NCBI GenBank assembly: GCA_903926075.1
Contig: CAIYHQ010000114.1
Coordinates: 1 to 39,679 of the forward strand
Direction of reading: 5' to 3'
DNA: 39,679 bases
From: an uncultured Methanomicrobiales archaeon
GTDB taxonomy: Archaea > Halobacteriota > Methanomicrobia > Methanomicrobiales > Methanospirillaceae
The notes under the pieces were generated by a model. It worked only from the letters and a program-made list of their open reading frames with translations, was not told where the DNA came from and searched no databases. Shown here one piece after another: positions 30,780 to 39,449 of the stretch (positions within the stretch are counted from its first letter, which is position 1; each line of letters starts with the position of its first letter). The position numbers and the translations under genes are program-made.

Positions 30780-31103
30780 TCACACATCTCTGAAATTTTC
30801 CCGCTTCGTGCTGCAGGACTGTAAATATTCATCGATATCATCATCAGTAATCCGGTAAGCCTTTCCAATACGGAAAGCGTGGAGTTCTCCGCGGCGGATA
30901 AGTTCCCTGATTAGCTCATCCTTAACCTTCAGGCGTTCTGCAACTTCCGATATGGCGTAGAAATGCTGGTCAGCGAAAATTTTCCTTTGCCTGGAAGCAC
31001 GCCGCCGCCCGAGTGCTATAAGGTATGGTTCACCTGGTTGTGGAGGCGTTGGATCAATATCCCCGGATTCACCAGATAGCCATTCTTGGTCATTATTTAT
31101 CAT
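30780..31103 (-). CDS. Excisionase-family helix-turn-helix regulator
   Basis: I take ATG 31103 (MINNDQEWLSG) as the start, giving 107 residues; the open frame upstream is AT-rich and looks non-coding. Residues ~48-100 form an excisionase/MerR-like HTH domain: FYAISEVAERLKVKDELIRE, LIRRGELHAFRIGKAYRITD, DDIDEYLQSC. Such domains bind short operators and often control their own operon. The gene precedes the VIT-VWA gene by three bases and is preceded by inverted and direct repeats at 31113-31164 that could be its binding sites. GGTAG precedes the ATG. Confidence 0.8.
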   Translation of the reverse strand: MINNDQEWLSGESGDIDPTPPQPGEPYLIALGRRRASRQRKIFADQHFYAISEVAERLKVKDELIRELIRRGELHAFRIGKAYRITDDDIDEYLQSCSTKRENFRDV

Positions 31104-31112
31104 TTCTACCAC

Positions 31113-31164
31113 ATGTATACAGATACATTTCGTGATATAACTGTATAAAAATGTATAAAACAGT
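31113..31164 (-). promoter_or_regulatory. Repeats upstream of the HTH gene, possible operator
   Basis: ATGTAT and ATACAT form a perfect inverted repeat with a 4-base spacer at 31113-31128. At 31140-31164 ACTGT and ACAGT bound a segment that holds TGTATAAAA twice, 10 bases apart (31142 and 31152 on the plus strand). The region is 10-60 bases before the HTH start and also includes TATA-like DNA, so autoregulation is likely but inferred. Confidence 0.45.
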
Positions 31165-31398
31165 ATAAGTATAAATAAGTTACTATAAACACAATGAAAT
31201 CTTACTGTCCTTAATGGTATGTATAATGGTGAATCTACCGGATTAAGTCTAATTTTACCTTTAACTTGCCGGCCTTTAGATAAAGGCTGAAAATAATATC
31301 TTTGAATCAAAATCTGAAAAAGTGATAAAATGACAGTTTCATTTACCTTATTGTACCTTCATTTATACTTATAGATTAATTATTCTCAAAAAATTAGA

Positions 31399-31413
31399 CA
31401 TTTGTATAAATTT
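31399..31413 (+). promoter_or_regulatory. Putative promoter of the coenzyme M operon
   Basis: TTTGTATAAATTTAC-like TATA box about 60 bases before the first gene. The DNA from 31311 to 31464 is very AT-rich and has no open frame. Confidence 0.4.
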
Positions 31414-31464
31414 ACCGTACTATAAGGAAATAATTAATAACCAATACCTCATATAATATCATCT

Positions 31465-32232
31465 ATGACAATAATACATGAGATAACTGTTCTTCCAGGG
31501 ATTAACAAACAGGGAGAGAGAGAAGAATTCATTCCTATCATCATCAGGCCGGGTGACTGCCTTTCAATTGTCGGCCCTACCGGGTCGGGTAAAACAGCAT
31601 TTATCAATGATATCGAGGTTTTTGCACAGGGGGACACTGCAACCAAACGTATTGTTCTCGTTAACGGTGAAGTGCCGGATGAAATGCTTGTCCGTGACCC
31701 TGCACAGAAACCGATAGCGATGATAACACAGAACACAAAATGCTTTGCAGATTTAACAGTAAATGATTTTCTCATAATGCATATCAAGGCCCGGGGATTA
31801 TCTGATGCCAGTATTGTTGACAGGGTTATCTCTGTTGCAAATGGGTTTACCGGCGAATATGTGACTCCTGAGATGAGGGTGACCTCGTTATCAGGTGGAC
31901 AGACAAGAGCCCTCCTCATTTCAGACGCCCTTGTTATTGGAAACAAACCTATAATTCTCCTTGACGAGATAGAAAACGCCGGAATTTTCAAAGAAAAAGT
32001 TATTTCATGCCTTAAAAACAATAAAAGAGCTGTTATTTTTGTAACTCACGACCCATATGTTGCTCTTCTCTCTGAAAGGAGGATTGTTATGAAAAACGGA
32101 GCTGTTACAAAAGTCATCGAACCGGGTCCGTCTGAAGAAGCAGCTCTATTTGAGATACGCAGGATGGACGAATGCCTTCATTCCCTGCGTGAACGCATCC
32201 GTTCCGGTGAACAGATACTTGGAATCGCGTGA
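31465..32232 (+). CDS. Soluble ABC-type ATPase, first gene of coenzyme M operon
   Basis: 255 residues, a single nucleotide-binding domain: Walker A GPTGSGKT (about 36-43), Q-loop ITQNTK, signature LSGGQTRALLISDALV, Walker B PIILLDEIENAG and switch His in VTHDPY. There is no membrane helix and no permease gene nearby, so it is not an ordinary transporter. Soluble ABC ATPases in methanogens include SufC and the AtwA component of methyl-CoM reductase activation, but this is neither by length and neighbours. Its stop overlaps the next gene by four bases (GTGA). I infer ATP-driven assembly or activation of a metalloprotein in the same operon, possibly the DUF39 protein. Confidence 0.85.
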   Translation: MTIIHEITVLPGINKQGEREEFIPIIIRPGDCLSIVGPTGSGKTAFINDIEVFAQGDTATKRIVLVNGEVPDEMLVRDPAQKPIAMITQNTKCFADLTVNDFLIMHIKARGLSDASIVDRVISVANGFTGEYVTPEMRVTSLSGGQTRALLISDALVIGNKPIILLDEIENAGIFKEKVISCLKNNKRAVIFVTHDPYVALLSERRIVMKNGAVTKVIEPGPSEEAALFEIRRMDECLHSLRERIRSGEQILGIA

Positions 32233-32948
32233 TACAACGAATGATACTTATCATTGTGGCAGGGCCGCCGAGTTCAGGAAAAACCTCGGTTATACGGCAA
32301 ATAATCAGGCATTTCATATCAGAAAAAAAGATAACATATCTCAAGATTGATGTGGTTCAGGCCTTTGAGGATGAGGAGTTAAAAAAAGAGTTTGGAATCC
32401 CTACAAGGAAGGTATATTCCGGGGACCTTTGTCCTGACCATACCGGAATTATGGTACTTGAGGATGCCATAACCTGGGCAGAAAATGAAGAGGCTGACAT
32501 TTTAATATTTGAAAGTGCGGGCTTATGTCTGAGATGCACTCCCTATACTACACAGTCTCTTGGAATCTGTGTAATATCTTCAATAAGTGGTGTTAATGCA
32601 CCTCTTAAAATGGCACCTATGGTTGCCCTTGCAGATATTGCGGTCGTGACAAAGACAGACCTTATCTCGCAGGCAGAGAAGGAAGTATTTCGTGAGTGCA
32701 TCGAAAAAGTCACAAATACTACAGAGATAATTGAAACAAATGCTCTTGAAGGGACCGGACTTCGGTATCTTATGAGGAGGATCAATGAAGCTCCCACTCT
32801 TGCAAAAGGTGATAAAGTCCTTCTCAGAGGTTCTCCACCACTTGGAGTCTGTACCATATGTGTTGGAAAGAAGGAAATCGGATGGCAGCACCATTTTGGA
32901 GTGGTACGCCCTCTTGATGGAGCAGATAACATCTATAGGGGGGATTAA
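32229..32948 (+). CDS. HypB/UreG-like P-loop GTPase
   Basis: 239 residues. Walker A is VAGPPSSGKTSV (about 10-21), an Asp switch lies in YLKIDVVQAFED, and the base-specificity motif is VVTKTDL. This arrangement fits the SIMIBI metallochaperone GTPases HypB, UreG and CobW. Cys pairs occur in SAGLCLRCTPY and, near the C-terminus, in VCTICVGKKEIGWQHHFG; the latter, with two His, is a plausible metal site. It starts with GTG overlapping the ABC gene; ATG 32241 is an alternative. The order ATPase, GTPase, Fe-S protein suggests cofactor or metal delivery to a downstream enzyme. Exact function unknown. Confidence 0.82.
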   Translation: MIQRMILIIVAGPPSSGKTSVIRQIIRHFISEKKITYLKIDVVQAFEDEELKKEFGIPTRKVYSGDLCPDHTGIMVLEDAITWAENEEADILIFESAGLCLRCTPYTTQSLGICVISSISGVNAPLKMAPMVALADIAVVTKTDLISQAEKEVFRECIEKVTNTTEIIETNALEGTGLRYLMRRINEAPTLAKGDKVLLRGSPPLGVCTICVGKKEIGWQHHFGVVRPLDGADNIYRGD

Positions 32949-33564
32949 TATAACCTGGTCACCACCCGGAAAGGACTGTGGTGTATGCGGGGCGAGGACA
33001 TGCAGTGAATTTATGGACCTCGTTTCGATTGGTGAAAAGAAAGAAAGCGACTGTACCTTTTATTCCAATTCACAATCAGTACTTCCTGAAAAACGGGTAT
33101 ATAGTGGCACTGACTGTGTTGGAAATAGTTATGATTTTGTTTTGAATCCTCTCCCTGGTGAACCATCTGCAAGAAAGTTTATTATACCGTTTAGACCTGA
33201 TATCGTGGAGAAATGGGATATAAAACCAGGACAGATTATTACTGGCAGGCCTGCAGGTCCAGGTTGCCCGGTCTATCATGCATTAAAGGTTCTGGATGCA
33301 AATCCGGTAACAGGAGTACTTGCCTGTCATACTGTCGGCCCGCTTGTTGCAAGAACACACGATGTAATGGATCTCCAGGCGTATAATGTCCATGCTTTTG
33401 AAGGGACCGTCACTGTTATAAAGAAAGCACCAATGTTCGGACGCCGCCAGTGGTTTCTTCCCGGCCTTTGCATGCTTGACCTAGCACACACTGCAGTCGT
33501 GAACATGGTCCTTGAAAAATCATATGGTCTTCACATCCGGCTTGAGGATATAAGGATATTATGA
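32917..33564 (+). CDS. Small Fe-S cluster protein
   Basis: I place the start at ATG 32917, which overlaps the GTPase gene by 32 bases; the frame is open 44 codons further upstream but would overlap far more. The 215-residue protein has C21, C24, C29 and C46 in GKDCGVCGARTCSEFMDL and SDCTFY, the Cx2Cx4Cx16C spacing of the 4Fe-4S domain found in RnfB and the corrinoid Fe-S proteins. The C-terminal two-thirds (RKFIIPFRPDIVEKWDIKPG, GRPAGPGCPVYHALKV, LDLAHTAVVNM) belong to no family I can name. Further Cys in GPGCPVYH and LACHTVG are candidates for metal or electron chemistry. The stop overlaps the next start by four bases, so it is tightly coupled to the DUF39 gene. Confidence 0.78.
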   Translation: MEQITSIGGINITWSPPGKDCGVCGARTCSEFMDLVSIGEKKESDCTFYSNSQSVLPEKRVYSGTDCVGNSYDFVLNPLPGEPSARKFIIPFRPDIVEKWDIKPGQIITGRPAGPGCPVYHALKVLDANPVTGVLACHTVGPLVARTHDVMDLQAYNVHAFEGTVTVIKKAPMFGRRQWFLPGLCMLDLAHTAVVNMVLEKSYGLHIRLEDIRIL

Positions 33565-34808
33565 AGTCATTGTCAATTGTTAACAAAAAGATAGAAGAGG
33601 GTCAGGCAACAGTTCTAACAGCTGATGAATTCAAAAAAAGGGTAGAAGAAGGGGAAAAATTCACTGTTGACGATGTAGATGTTGTTACAACCGGTACATT
33701 TGGGATAATGTCTGGGACAATGGCTGTCTTTAATTTTCCATTTATGCCCCCAAATACCTTTGAGAGGGCTAAAGCAGTTTTTATGAATGGAGTCCCGGCA
33801 TTCCCTGGCCCCTGTCCAAATGAAAGGCTCGGTGAGATTGATGCAGTGGTCTATGGCACTTCAACCCGGGACAGTTCGTACGGTGGCGGCCACCTGTTCC
33901 GTGATCTTGTAGAGGGAAAATCAGTTCACATAAGTGTGGATACCGGGGAAAAGGTTCTCGAATCTTATATCTCCTTAACTGATATGCGTTATGCAGTAAT
34001 GCAGACAACGAGGGCAGCTTTTAGGAATTATCATGCAATGGTAAATCCGGATTCTACCGAAATCAGGACAATATTCTCAGTAACAGGACTTAAAGGCCCG
34101 TTTAAAGAGGCATCTGTATCCGGATGCGGGAGTATAAATCCACTTGAAAATGATCCTGATTTTCATGTAATCGGGGTTGGAACACCTGTCCTTTTCAATG
34201 GTTCAAATGGATATGTTATGGGAATTGGTACCAGGGCAAGCAAAAAGAAGCCGAATATCTCGACTTTTGCAAACATGAAATATATGGATCCAACTCTTAT
34301 GGGTGGTTTTATAACCTCGCATGGCCCTGAATGCCTTGTTTCTATCGGAATACCGATCCCTGTCCTAGATGAACTGACATTAATGAACCTGTTGAAACAG
34401 AATTCAGATTCACCTATGCCGGTTACAGACATAAGGACCAGGACACCGATAGGGGAATCTGATTATGGCTGCATCTGGGATAAAACCGATATAATGGTCA
34501 GGGTCCATAAGGAACTTTGTATTAACTGTGATGAGTGTAAAGTCCGTTCACTCTGTCCAACCTGTGCCATAACAGAAGAATATGATATTGACCGCCATTA
34601 TTGTGTGAATTGCGGCACTTGCGTAAATAACTGTCCGTCACATGTCTTTACGGCAGACATGGGGAGAATTACGCTTGGAAATGATATAATACCTGTAACC
34701 CTCAGGCAATCTGACCGCTCCAGGGCTATACGGGTTTGTTCAATGCTTAAGAGAAAGATAATAAAAGGAGAATTCAACCTGAATGAGAGGATAATGCCGA
34801 TAGAATGA
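33561..34808 (+). CDS. DUF39/COG1900 protein with ferredoxin tail (methanogenesis marker 16 type)
   Basis: 415 residues. The first ~310 residues are the DUF39 fold, with the conserved active Cys in VSGCGSINPLEND, TTGTFGIMSGTMAVFNFPF and VMGIGTRASKKKPN. The last ~100 residues are a two-cluster ferredoxin, LCINCDECKVRSLCPTC and YCVNCGTCVNNCPSH. A related DUF39 protein (MA1821 in Methanosarcina) is needed for homocysteine formation from aspartate semialdehyde, by a persulfide-based conversion of an aldehyde to a thiol. In this operon with cysteate synthase and ComDE, the matching reaction would be sulfoacetaldehyde to coenzyme M. The assignment to that step is inference; family membership is firm. 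Confidence 0.88.
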   Translation: MKSLSIVNKKIEEGQATVLTADEFKKRVEEGEKFTVDDVDVVTTGTFGIMSGTMAVFNFPFMPPNTFERAKAVFMNGVPAFPGPCPNERLGEIDAVVYGTSTRDSSYGGGHLFRDLVEGKSVHISVDTGEKVLESYISLTDMRYAVMQTTRAAFRNYHAMVNPDSTEIRTIFSVTGLKGPFKEASVSGCGSINPLENDPDFHVIGVGTPVLFNGSNGYVMGIGTRASKKKPNISTFANMKYMDPTLMGGFITSHGPECLVSIGIPIPVLDELTLMNLLKQNSDSPMPVTDIRTRTPIGESDYGCIWDKTDIMVRVHKELCINCDECKVRSLCPTCAITEEYDIDRHYCVNCGTCVNNCPSHVFTADMGRITLGNDIIPVTLRQSDRSRAIRVCSMLKRKIIKGEFNLNERIMPIE

Positions 34809-36079
34809 AAGAAAAGTACTCTGTTGTATGTAGCGAATGTGGTGAAATTGTTCATGACAAATATGCCCAGTCATGTTCACACAACCATTCCGGCCTTCTG
34901 AAAACTGAATATTCAAAAAAAGATCTTGTTGTCCATAATTCTTTCGGAATATTCAGGTTTTCTGACTGGCTTCCTGTAGAAGGAGAGATTTTGGTTGAGT
35001 CTCGGCCTGTAACTTTCCATAATGCTGATCTTTCAAAGGAAACCGGGTTATCCAACCTTTCTTTAACCTTCTCAGGTTACTTTCCTGAAGAAGGTGCAAG
35101 GATGCAGACCTGTTCATTTAAAGAACTCGAAGCAGTCCCAACACTTCAGAGGATGATTAACAGGAAAAAAGAGGTTCTGATAATAGCTTCAGCCGGAAAT
35201 ACTGCTCGTGCATTTGCCCAGGTATCGGCTATCTCGAAAGTGCCTGTAATTCTCGTAGTTCCTGAGAATTCTCTATCACGTCTTTGGACTACAGTTGAAT
35301 CTGAGAATATTCTGCTTATAACCGTGAAAGGCGATTATTCAGATGCCATTGAATGTTCACGCAAAATTACTTCAGTTGAATGCGTAATCCCTGAAGGAGG
35401 TGCAAGGAATATCGCAAGAAGGGACGGGATGGCAACTGTTCTCATTGATTATGTCATGACAAAAGGTCATCTTCCCTTGCATTACGTGCAGGCTATCGGC
35501 AGTGGAACTGGTGCAATTGCAGCGAATGAGGCTGCAAAACGCTTTTTAAAAGCAGGGAGATATGGTTCTGAACTTCCACATACTCACCTTGCACAGAATG
35601 CCCCTTTCACACCAATGGTTTCAGCATGGAGGGAGGGGAGGAGAGACTTAATACCTGACATAGATATGCCTGATGCACGTGAATCAATTGCAAAAGTCTA
35701 TGCAGATGTCCTCACAAACAGAAACCCGCCTTACAGCATCCGGGGCGGAGTTTTTGATACAATGACTGACAGTAACGGTCTCGCATATGCAGTAACAAAT
35801 GAAGAAGCGAGGTCTGCCGGAAAGCTGTTTACCGATTGTCTTGGTGTCGACCCTGACCCTGCCGCAGCAGTCTCCCTTGCTGCATTATTGCAGGCAGTTG
35901 ACTCGCATTCAATAAAACCCAGTGATTCAGTACTATTAAATGTGACCGGAGGAGGTTACTCAAGGGTAAAAGAGGACTTTACATTAATTCCCGTTCCAGT
36001 CACAATAAAGCTGCCGTCCAATGAACCTGGGATTGAAGTCCTTAAAGATATTTCAGGGTGGGTGAAGGAAAATGTCTGA
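34805..36079 (+). CDS. Cysteate synthase (PLP, threonine synthase fold)
   Basis: 424 residues. The N-terminus holds a CxxC pair (VVCSECGE) and a further Cys/His group (SCSHNH), as in the small ribbon of this family. The PLP Lys is probably that of QTCSFKELEAV near residue 103; the phosphate-binding loops are SAGNTARAF and, later, IGSGTGAIAA and VTGGGYSRV. Family knowledge: cysteate synthase makes cysteate from phosphoserine and sulfite, the entry of the Methanomicrobia route to coenzyme M. Cysteate is then transaminated to sulfopyruvate, the substrate of the next gene. Starts overlap on both sides (4 and 8 bases). Threonine synthase is the alternative, less likely beside ComDE. Confidence 0.9.
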   Translation: MKEKYSVVCSECGEIVHDKYAQSCSHNHSGLLKTEYSKKDLVVHNSFGIFRFSDWLPVEGEILVESRPVTFHNADLSKETGLSNLSLTFSGYFPEEGARMQTCSFKELEAVPTLQRMINRKKEVLIIASAGNTARAFAQVSAISKVPVILVVPENSLSRLWTTVESENILLITVKGDYSDAIECSRKITSVECVIPEGGARNIARRDGMATVLIDYVMTKGHLPLHYVQAIGSGTGAIAANEAAKRFLKAGRYGSELPHTHLAQNAPFTPMVSAWREGRRDLIPDIDMPDARESIAKVYADVLTNRNPPYSIRGGVFDTMTDSNGLAYAVTNEEARSAGKLFTDCLGVDPDPAAAVSLAALLQAVDSHSIKPSDSVLLNVTGGGYSRVKEDFTLIPVPVTIKLPSNEPGIEVLKDISGWVKENV

Positions 36080-37211
36080 CAGGGATCTTATTTCAGTCCT
36101 TAAGTCCTGTGGAACTGACCTTGCAATTACGCTTCCTTGTGACAAAGCAAGGGAGCTTTTTTTTGATATCCCTAAATATTTCAGGCATGTAGGGATTGTC
36201 CGCGAAGAAGATGGAGTAGGCATTGCGGCTGGTGCCTATCTTGGAGGTGCGAAACCCGTTCTCGTTATCCAGAGTTCAGGAATTGGAAATATGCTCAACG
36301 CACTCATGTCCCTTTCAAGGTTATACAGGTTCCCTCTTCCGGTAATTGCAAGCCTGAGGGGCGGGCATGATGAGGCAATCGCTGCACAGGTTCCTTTCAA
36401 TTCCCGCCTCCCCTCGGTCCTGAAAGCTGTACAGATTCCGTATTGTGTTATCAACACCCCTAAAGATCTCTGGAAGATAAGGGACCTAATCACAATGTCG
36501 TTTAAAAAAGAGATTCCGGTCGTTGGGCTTATTTCACCTTCTGTCTTCAGAAATGCAGAACCAGTTCCCGAAACAGCGAGAACTCCCGCTTGTCTCGCAG
36601 GAAGGATGGATTCTTCACAATGTATGGATCTTCCTGCTCCCTCAATGACACGATACGGTGCAATTCAGACAATAATGGACACAATCAAAGATGAACTCAT
36701 TGTCACGAATATCGGGGTCCCTTCTAAAGAGGTTTATGCAATCCGTGACAGGCCAAAAAACTTTTACATGCTCGGGAGTTACACACAGGCCTCATCCATA
36801 GGCCTTGGACTTTCACTTTCTACTGATGAAAAAGTCACAGTAATTGACGGAGACGGAAGTCTCCTCGGGTCATCGGTACTTCCGGTAATTGGTGAGGAGC
36901 AACCCAGGAATTTGAGAATAATCTGTCTTGATAACGGAACATTTGGAAGTACAGGAAATCAGCCGTCTCCTGCTTCCGGAAGAGCTGACCTTGCGACTAT
37001 TGCATATGGTTCAGGGATACAAAGTCCATTTACAGTTTCAGAGAAAAGTAAGCTTGTTGAACTCTTGAATTCAGATATTCCAGGTCCTCTTTTTATAAGG
37101 TTTATTATCAATCCGGGTAATAGCAGTGTCCCGAATATCCCCTTAAGTCCTATCGAAATCAGGGAGCGTTTTATGGGAGCGATTCGAAAAGAAAGTGATC
37201 AATCAAAATAG
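36072..37211 (+). CDS. comDE: Sulfopyruvate decarboxylase, fused alpha and beta subunits
   Basis: 379 residues, combining both subunits that are separate in Methanocaldococcus (comD, comE). Residues 1-160 are the alpha part (PYR domain; GIVREEDGVGIAAGAYLGG with the catalytic Glu, then VIQSSGIGNMLNALMSL). Residues ~190-379 are the beta part with the TPP motif GDGSLLGSSV near 258, ending in an Asn in RIICLDNGTFG. It decarboxylates sulfopyruvate to sulfoacetaldehyde for coenzyme M. Start overlaps the cysteate synthase stop by eight bases. It is the last gene of the operon, followed by a short T-run near 37293. Confidence 0.93.
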   Translation: MSDRDLISVLKSCGTDLAITLPCDKARELFFDIPKYFRHVGIVREEDGVGIAAGAYLGGAKPVLVIQSSGIGNMLNALMSLSRLYRFPLPVIASLRGGHDEAIAAQVPFNSRLPSVLKAVQIPYCVINTPKDLWKIRDLITMSFKKEIPVVGLISPSVFRNAEPVPETARTPACLAGRMDSSQCMDLPAPSMTRYGAIQTIMDTIKDELIVTNIGVPSKEVYAIRDRPKNFYMLGSYTQASSIGLGLSLSTDEKVTVIDGDGSLLGSSVLPVIGEEQPRNLRIICLDNGTFGSTGNQPSPASGRADLATIAYGSGIQSPFTVSEKSKLVELLNSDIPGPLFIRFIINPGNSSVPNIPLSPIEIRERFMGAIRKESDQSK

Positions 37212-37606: not shown

Positions 37607-38203
37607 ATGTCTGAAAATATCATTAACCCAAATAGAGTTGTTGAGATTAAAGATATTACTGCAGGAGCGGGAGCTCTGGGACTCCTTGGATACGGAATGC
37701 CTGGTGTTCTTATAAGTCTTGCAAATGCAGGGCTCATACAGTCAGGGTCTGCAATACTTAGTATGGTTATCTTCATGGGAGGACTCGCTATGTTCACTGC
37801 CGGTCTGATGGAGTGGAAAAAGGGAAACACTTATGGCATGGCTGCCTATGCATCTTATGGCCTTTTCTTCTTCTCGTTTGCTGCTATTATGATCCTGCCC
37901 GTTCTCGGGCTTTCAAAAGACACGGGTGGACCGGGTACTATGGCAGCATATCTCGCTCTCTGGGGACTTTTCACGTTAATTCTGTTTATTGGTTCCCTGA
38001 AAATGTCACGCGCACTACAGGTCGTACTTGGGACTCTGGCGATTGTATTCTTCCTTGAAGCTGCAGGAGCGGCAACCGGAAATGGCCTCTTCATTATAGT
38101 TGCAGGTTATGTAGGAATAATAAGTGGATTTGCAGCGATTTATACTGCATGTGCACCGATCCTGAATGATATCTATGGGAAGACTGTCGCACCGCTAGGA
38201 TAA
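37607..38203 (+). CDS. Acetate/succinate transporter, GPR1/FUN34/YaaH family
   Basis: 198 residues with six predicted membrane helices, the normal size of archaeal AceTr proteins. Family signatures are visible: AGALGLLGYGMPGVLISL (position of the NPxPLGLxxF motif) and the block IFMGGLAMFTAGLMEWKKGN with the conserved GLxEwxkGNTxG. Hexameric relatives (SatP, AceTr) import acetate with a proton. Many Methanomicrobiales need acetate as a carbon source, which would explain the gene. It is monocistronic; an AT-rich region precedes it and a T-run follows. Confidence 0.93.
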   Translation: MSENIINPNRVVEIKDITAGAGALGLLGYGMPGVLISLANAGLIQSGSAILSMVIFMGGLAMFTAGLMEWKKGNTYGMAAYASYGLFFFSFAAIMILPVLGLSKDTGGPGTMAAYLALWGLFTLILFIGSLKMSRALQVVLGTLAIVFFLEAAGAATGNGLFIIVAGYVGIISGFAAIYTACAPILNDIYGKTVAPLG

Positions 38204-38303: not shown

Positions 38304-39449
38304 TTAATGGGCCCTTTTTGCAATCTCCTTAACTGCCCTTGAGATAAAACAGCACTCTTCAGGCGTATTAAGAAAAGAGAGACTGATTCTCGTGGTCCCT
38401 TTCGACTCATTCAGTTTTTTATGAAGCAATGGTGCGCAATGGAGGCCGGTCCTCACAATTACACTGTATTTTTTTAAAAGGATATATCCGACATCGTCAC
38501 ATCCAAGTGATTCAATGGAGAGGGATATCACTGGAAGATCAGGGTCCGGGTTATCGAGAGTGATGTTTTCGTAATCTTTCAATTCGTCTATTATAAAGTG
38601 TGTCAGTTTCTTACAATGATTGTGAATTTTGTCAGGACCCTGGCTTGTGATATATCTTGTCCCGGCCCAGAGGGAGACAATACCCGGGTAGTTGTGCGTT
38701 CCAGCTTCAAACCTTTCAGGCATCTCTTCAGGGTGCTTTAAGTTTCCTGAATCTGTTCCTGTTCCTCCCTGTCTTACAGGTTCAATCTGCTTGTAGTCCT
38801 TAATCAGGAACCCGCCAGTTCCAGGCAGGCCAAAAAGGTATTTATGGCCCGTAAAAACGAAAGCATCTACCGGGAGCCGATTAAAGTCAACAGGAACCAT
38901 CCCTGCGGTCTGGGCTCCGTCGACAATAAAAAACACACTGTTATTATGGAGCATTTTTCCGGTTTTTTCAATGTTTTGTATTGTACCAAGTACGTTGCTC
39001 CCATGAGTGAATACGGCAAGTTTTGTTTCAGGGAGTAACAGATCTTCAACTGACTCCTTTGAGATGTAACCCCCCTCTGCAGGAACAATACTAAGACTGA
39101 CCTTACCCTTTGATTCGAGCGTGCTTAGAGGTCTTAGTACCGAGTTGTGCTCAAGTTCTGAGGTCAGGACATGAACAGGTTCATCAGTATTGTTGCAAAA
39201 ACCATGAATCAGCATGTTTAGTGAATCTGTTGCATTCTGCGTAAATATTACATGATCAGGGTCAGGACAATTAAAGAAAGTAGCAAGACTCTCCCTTGCC
39301 AGTCCAAGGTAATCCTGCAAGCCCTCTATTGAACTTCTCCCTCTCTCAAAATAAGGACATTTTAATGATTCCTGCACTGCCTCTAGGACTTCTGCAGGTT
39401 TTGGCCAGCTTGATGCAGCATTGTTACAATAAATCAATTTATTTTTCAT
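38304..39449 (-). CDS. Cysteine desulfurase-like class V aminotransferase
   Basis: 381 residues. PLP-enzyme landmarks in order: YCNNAASSWPKP, FTQNATDSLNMLIHG, the His of SELEHNSVLRPL, the Asp of FIVDGAQTAGMVPVD, the Schiff-base Lys of FTGHKYLFGLPGTGGFL, and a catalytic Cys in VRTGLHCAPLLHKKL. This is the group II (SufS/CsdA-like) layout, closest to the cysteine desulfurase family often annotated TIGR01977. It releases sulfur from cysteine as an enzyme-bound persulfide. Many methanogens lack IscS and use sulfide directly, so its role is uncertain; it might feed persulfide sulfur to Fe-S or thiol assembly. A second, unidentified gene lies upstream on the same strand. Confidence 0.9.
   Translation of the reverse strand: MKNKLIYCNNAASSWPKPAEVLEAVQESLKCPYFERGRSSIEGLQDYLGLARESLATFFNCPDPDHVIFTQNATDSLNMLIHGFCNNTDEPVHVLTSELEHNSVLRPLSTLESKGKVSLSIVPAEGGYISKESVEDLLLPETKLAVFTHGSNVLGTIQNIEKTGKMLHNNSVFFIVDGAQTAGMVPVDFNRLPVDAFVFTGHKYLFGLPGTGGFLIKDYKQIEPVRQGGTGTDSGNLKHPEEMPERFEAGTHNYPGIVSLWAGTRYITSQGPDKIHNHCKKLTHFIIDELKDYENITLDNPDPDLPVISLSIESLGCDDVGYILLKKYSVIVRTGLHCAPLLHKKLNESKGTTRISLSFLNTPEECCFISRAVKEIAKRAH

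Follow-up and report, generated by a model that had tools for sequence, protein, structure and literature searches.

A three-gene module encoding an ABC ATPase, a GTPase, and an iron-sulfur protein is linked to sulfonate formation in methanogens and Clostridia and may serve sulfite supply

What do three genes with no assigned place in the pathway do at the head of a coenzyme M operon? To our knowledge, methanogens always require coenzyme M to form methane, and in both archaeal routes to this cofactor sulfite is added early. For strict anaerobes that live on sulfide, the source of this sulfite has been described as unclear, and siroheme proteins running in reverse have been both proposed and doubted (PMC3448663; PMC6286981). 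In the window analyzed here, the whole 39,679-nucleotide stretch from an uncultured Methanomicrobiales archaeon, genes encoding a soluble ABC-type ATPase, a HypB/UreG-like GTPase, and a COG2000-type Fe-S protein are followed by those for MMP16, cysteate synthase, and ComDE (Table 1). The original prediction described the first three as lacking an assigned place. The literature says the same: a figure legend lists an ATPase, a Ni-binding GTPase, and a COG2000 Fe-S protein as frequently encoded near coenzyme M genes, "role unknown", and the figure gives example neighborhoods from six methanogen orders (PMC12068725, Fig. 2B and legend). The three genes of the window are of the same kinds and in the same kind of location as these published loci. 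In Methanosarcina acetivorans, the same study (Chadwick et al. 2025, PMC12068725) used deletion, complementation, and transcriptomics to show that MMP16 is the principal coenzyme M synthase, genetic proof for the suggestion that the DUF39 protein performs the last step. Linkage of the three genes to coenzyme M genes is hence already published; unlike that legend, we report linkage to bacterial ComA/ComB, an association that is closer with the sulfite-using step than with MMP16, and some carriers that have no COG1900 protein, none of which was found in the literature searched, nor was any paper connecting the three genes with sulfite.

Table 1. Features of the coenzyme M operon and its upstream region in the window
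Feature	Coordinates	Strand	Basis
AT-rich intergenic region, probable archaeal promoter of operon	31311..31464	+	sequence reading
Soluble ABC-type ATPase, 255 aa, module gene 1	31465..32232	+	ABC_tran 48.2 bits (cutoff 25)
HypB/UreG-type GTPase, 239 aa, module gene 2	32229..32948	+	cobW/HypB/UreG 49 bits (cutoff 20.7)
COG2000-type Fe-S protein, ~215 aa, module gene 3	32917..33564	+	PF04060 32.1 bits (cutoff 23)
MMP16, coenzyme M synthase / ComF, with ferredoxin domain	33561..34808	+	TIGR03287 502 (cutoff 364); HcyBio 326 (26.2)
Cysteate synthase (phosphoserine + sulfite -> cysteate)	34805..36079	+	TIGR03844 578 bits (cutoff 325)
ComDE, sulfopyruvate decarboxylase, alpha/beta fused	36072..37211	+	TIGR03846 226 (221.5), TIGR03845 177 (148)

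All six ORFs were confirmed on the same strand of the window (31465-37211, +). In agreement with the 4- to 32-base overlaps first noted, neighboring genes overlap by 4 bp (ABC/GTPase), 32 bp (GTPase/FeS), 4 bp (FeS/MMP16), 4 bp (MMP16/cysteate synthase), and 8 bp (cysteate synthase/ComDE), the 32-bp value applying to an Fe-S protein start at 32917, where homologs begin, within an ORF that opens at 32785. These overlaps suggest that the six genes are cotranscribed. MMP16, cysteate synthase, and ComDE are clustered and all score above curated cutoffs, confirming the proposed assignment to coenzyme M synthesis and placing the operon in the phosphoserine route. Divergent from the operon lies a gene for an HTH_17 (excisionase-type) DNA-binding protein, a possible regulator (30780-31310, -). 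Directly downstream of ComDE is a GPR1/FUN34/YaaH-type transporter gene (37607-38203, +), followed by a class V aminotransferase gene (cysteine desulfurase-like; 38304-39449, -); a YaaH-type gene also occurs upstream of the three genes in Clostridia locus L084, a recurrence possibly due to chance.

Each of the three proteins carries conserved motifs or ligand residues. In the ATPase, Walker A (GPTGSGKT), LSGGQ, DEIENAG, and the H-loop THD are conserved among 20 homologs, and no permease was found in the operon or as a recurrent neighbor in 59 archaeal loci, upholding the earlier description of an ABC ATPase without a permease. SufC and AtwA (methyl-CoM reductase activation) are soluble, nontransport ABC ATPases that work with Fe-S partners; the ATPase would resemble them in combining a missing permease with a putative Fe-S partner, although the operon has no SufB/SufD or MCR activation genes. 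The GTPase has C68-P-D-H71 and C100/C103 invariant across 42 aligned homologs, as well as invariant C208/C211 and H222, and its predicted fold matches HypB and UreG (Foldseek 2wsm, 4hi0, 5xkt; E 1e-8 to 2e-9). It shares with these proteins the Pfam domain, fold, P-loop, and Cys/His positions, its CPDH aligning with the UreG CPH motif and C100/C103 presumably placed where HypB has a further ligand. It scores far below both equivalog cutoffs (HypB, 60.9 vs. 121.2; UreG, 32.5 vs. 204.2), and unlike HypB and UreG it has an extra C-terminal CxxC and His. Nor does the operon contain the urease or hydrogenase genes of their nickel-insertion context. The Cx2Cx4Cx16C spacing predicted for the Fe-S protein is exact (C21, C24, C29, C46) and invariant in 49 homologs. 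This N-terminal four-Cys cluster domain (PF04060) is where its likeness to the corrinoid/iron-sulfur protein large subunit ends, the two being set apart by a C-terminal beta domain with invariant C117, H121, C185, and H191. No PDB match to the whole predicted model (pLDDT 88.5) was returned by fold search, and neither sequence nor fold search matched the beta domain.

Scanning GTDB contigs with the Fe-S protein alignment returned 80 loci, Class I methanogens (Methanococci, Methanobacteria) being outside the sample. The ABC ATPase, GTPase, and Fe-S protein genes, hereafter the module, were together in all but a few truncated loci and in the same order except in L055 and L074. Conservation of this order across Methanomicrobiales, Methanosarcina, Methanomassiliicoccales, and Clostridia argues that the arrangement is not due to chance. 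Clostridia carriers included the isolates Heliobacterium chlorum, H. mobile, Heliophilum fasciatum, and Pelotomaculum propionicicum in addition to many MAGs, and bacterial GTPases were ~55-63% identical to that of the window. The 17 sampled Clostridia formed one clade in each of three single-gene trees (support of at least 0.999), indicating that the three genes travel together. Pieces of a methanogen-type coenzyme M operon were also found in MAGs labeled Nitrospirae (L044), Nanohalarchaeota (L048), and Bacilli (L097), most likely through contamination.

The original prediction cast the three proteins as a maturation machine for the DUF39 protein, that is, one loading a metal or Fe-S cluster into MMP16. 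The module adjoins MMP16 in many methanogens, and its GTPase is similar to HypB and UreG, both nickel chaperones. At some Methanosarcina loci (L039-L042, L045), and likewise in G155, the neighbor of the module is MMP16 and not cysteate synthase, which also counts against a tie to the latter. Module distribution nevertheless rejects MMP16 maturation as a general role. In Clostridia, neither MMP16 nor cysteate synthase nor ComDE was found beside the module, and a genome-wide search for HcyBio/COG1900 (PF01837) found none in 9 of 21 module-positive bacterial genomes, including the isolates H. chlorum, H. mobile, and Heliophilum fasciatum; occurrence in organisms without a DUF39 gene is what the prediction itself had named as evidence against it. 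Among archaea, the Methanoregula-type relative G049 (single contig, 99% complete) encodes ABC-GTPase-FeS-cysteate synthase-ComDE with no MMP16 over the family cutoff, a layout shared by ~10 of the 80 loci, mostly from Methanoregula, and G036 likewise combines the module with cysteate synthase, no MMP16 exceeding the cutoff. As to co-occurrence with MMP16, proposed earlier as a check, 37 of 39 module-positive Halobacteriota genomes had MMP16, and 40 MMP16-bearing Halobacteriota genomes lacked the module. Furthermore, a passage of PMC12068725 cites the MMP16 homolog MJ1681 as functional in E. coli, which on that account would need no methanogen-specific maturase there. We consider MMP16 maturation very unlikely; the distribution data remove a plausible lead, and the comparative evidence shifts the three genes from MMP16 to the sulfite-using step. 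G155 carries two MMP16 genes, of which one adjoins cysteate synthase and the other is in convergent orientation to the module (G155:C96, G155:C149). The genome of the window itself has a second HcyBio/COG1900 gene (G000:C130:13863-14876, -, in a 520-aa frame), probably a homocysteine-forming L-ASST, so the backup for MMP16 described in the literature is likely available here.

Cysteate synthase is unrelated to ComA, and the two act on different organic substrates, with sulfite common to both. Sulfite use has been described for ComA (PMC3087415) and for cysteate synthase (PMC12713407). Across 158 Halobacteriota genomes, cysteate synthase was encoded in all 39 module carriers vs. 31 of the 119 other genomes (Fisher 4e-18), a closer association than with MMP16, and across 129 Bacillota genomes ComA was encoded in 13 of 14 module-positive vs. 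37 of 115 module-negative genomes (p 1.5e-5), both tests ignoring shared ancestry. Of the Clostridia-type genomes that contributed module loci, 18 of 19 also encoded ComA. Exceptions to co-occurrence with a sulfite-using, C-SO3-forming enzyme were G160 (L084), L055, and L074. Gene order follows the same pattern. In bacteria, L085 and L099 read ComA-ComB-ABC-GTPase-FeS (ComB being 2-phosphosulfolactate phosphatase) and L102 reads ComA-ABC-GTPase-FeS, as does L096 across an assembly gap; a ComA-ABC fusion in L096 was rejected, since the shared frame merely spans that gap. The module lies between cysteate synthase and ComD in L143 (CysS-ABC-GTPase-FeS-ComD-ComE) and is missing from its sister L135 (CysS-ComD-ComE), while L144 reads CysS-ABC-GTPase-FeS with MMP16 elsewhere; in L145, the module is unlinked from pathway genes. 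In nine relatives from the taxonomic order of the window that lack cysteate synthase (G003, G013, G043, G055, G060, G075, G105, G115, and G134), the module and MMP16 are absent as well. Together, these data provide strong evidence that the module is linked to sulfonate formation. Its presence in bacteria that make another sulfonate, not coenzyme M, suggests that it probably supplies the sulfite needed by both pathways.

We therefore tentatively propose, with slightly less than even confidence, that the three proteins constitute a transferable module acting at a sulfonate-forming step, where its most likely task is to supply sulfite. Sulfite as the product, the sulfur source, the metals, the division of labor, and the energetics are inferences within this model. 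Sulfite, or an enzyme-bound activated form, would be passed to cysteate synthase in methanogens or to ComA in Clostridia. The Fe-S protein would be the redox or catalytic part, with a [4Fe-4S] cluster and a second, putative Cys2His2 metal site that the HypB/UreG-like GTPase may load or gate. The soluble ABC ATPase would couple ATP hydrolysis to this Fe-S/metal chemistry, a coupling proposed because conversion of sulfide to sulfite is uphill in a strongly reducing cytoplasm. On a bolder and rather doubtful version, the three proteins are an unrecognized, ATP/GTP-driven sulfite-making enzyme requiring neither siroheme nor APS and working through sulfide oxidation or reduction of other sulfur species, whereby the Fe-S protein with its second metal site would form sulfite for sulfonates in strict anaerobes of both domains. 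If true, such an enzyme would answer where methanogens obtain sulfite for coenzyme M. The module accompanies sulfite-using enzymes in archaea as well as in bacteria and so provides named candidate genes for this gap.

The same co-occurrence and adjacency data would be expected if the module, instead of making sulfite, activated, protected, or channeled it, acting as a carrier that assembles with cysteate synthase or ComA, keeps toxic sulfite bound at a metal site, and passes it on. A carrier, unlike a source, could be dispensable, which fits the 45 pathway-bearing Halobacteriota genomes that lack the module. Two nucleotide hydrolases look excessive for such a task, and both cysteate synthase and ComA were characterized as purified single enzymes with free sulfite; we regard a carrier as unlikely. 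Alternatively, the module could mature a separate, unlinked metalloenzyme that makes sulfite. Maturation systems typically include NTPase pairs, a HypB/UreG-like GTPase with invariant Cys/His motifs is consistent with one, and the L145 arrangement shows that the module need not adjoin pathway genes. Set against this, no further gene family was clearly recurrent beside the module in the 59 archaeal loci, coenzyme M genes aside, and the published candidates, siroheme sulfite-reductase-like proteins, are also encoded by relatives without cysteate synthase. Such a client also appears unlikely.

That the ABC ATPase instead energizes a transporter for sulfonate, coenzyme M, or sulfite, with its membrane part encoded elsewhere, would suit its canonical, intact ABC motifs and its nearest solved relatives, which are transporter subunits. 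In four Methanoregula loci, a substrate-binding-like protein is encoded divergently upstream of the module (L035:4969-5910, L036:4899-5945, and L043:4927-5910, minus strand; also L038), with no permease; its resemblance to SsuA/TauA was judged by eye only. In archaea, permease genes are not recurrent neighbors of the module, and a transporter leaves the accompanying GTPase and Fe-S protein unexplained, making this the least probable of the readings considered here.

Counting against supply of sulfite by the module are the many genomes that have the pathway without it; the module is hence replaceable. ATP sulfurylase was also missing from 35 of the 45 such Halobacteriota genomes, so either another sulfite source exists or assemblies are incomplete; 9 of the 45 had neither ATP sulfurylase nor a siroheme protein. 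ATP sulfurylase, the enzyme of sulfate activation, was rarer with the module in both Halobacteriota (2/39 vs. 10/45, p 0.025) and Bacillota (1/13 vs. 14/37, p 0.039), weak associations uncorrected for ancestry. As a substitute for the module, this enzyme thus varies in the right direction yet covers only those 10 of the 45 and 14 of the 37 genomes without the module. Siroheme proteins were encoded in 37 of 39 module-positive genomes, hence the module is rarely the sole candidate sulfite source. Siroheme sulfite reductase failed to explain module absence; PF01077 is nearly ubiquitous, including in relatives without cysteate synthase, and is therefore uninformative. The Dsr-LP/alSir reverse sulfite reductase hypothesis targets the same missing step (PMC3448663; PMC6286981). 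Unlike the module, the siroheme family to which these enzymes belong also occurs in those relatives.

The two loci with altered gene order, from Auribacterota (L055:5726-16631) and UBP3 (L074), carry FeS-epimerase-ABC-GTPase inside a pseudaminate-type cluster with PseB, PseC, weak PseF and PseG matches, and a NeuB/PseI-like protein. No ComA was found in either genome, and the epimerase had no match to a sulfite-using enzyme. An SQD1-like sulfosugar synthase was considered and set aside, as the epimerase matches the common GalE/RmlB type and its hits included no sulfoquinovose synthase, though we keep it as a lead. These loci may hint at a sulfonated sugar or may contradict the sulfite model; the cluster possibly makes a sulfonated nonulosonic acid.
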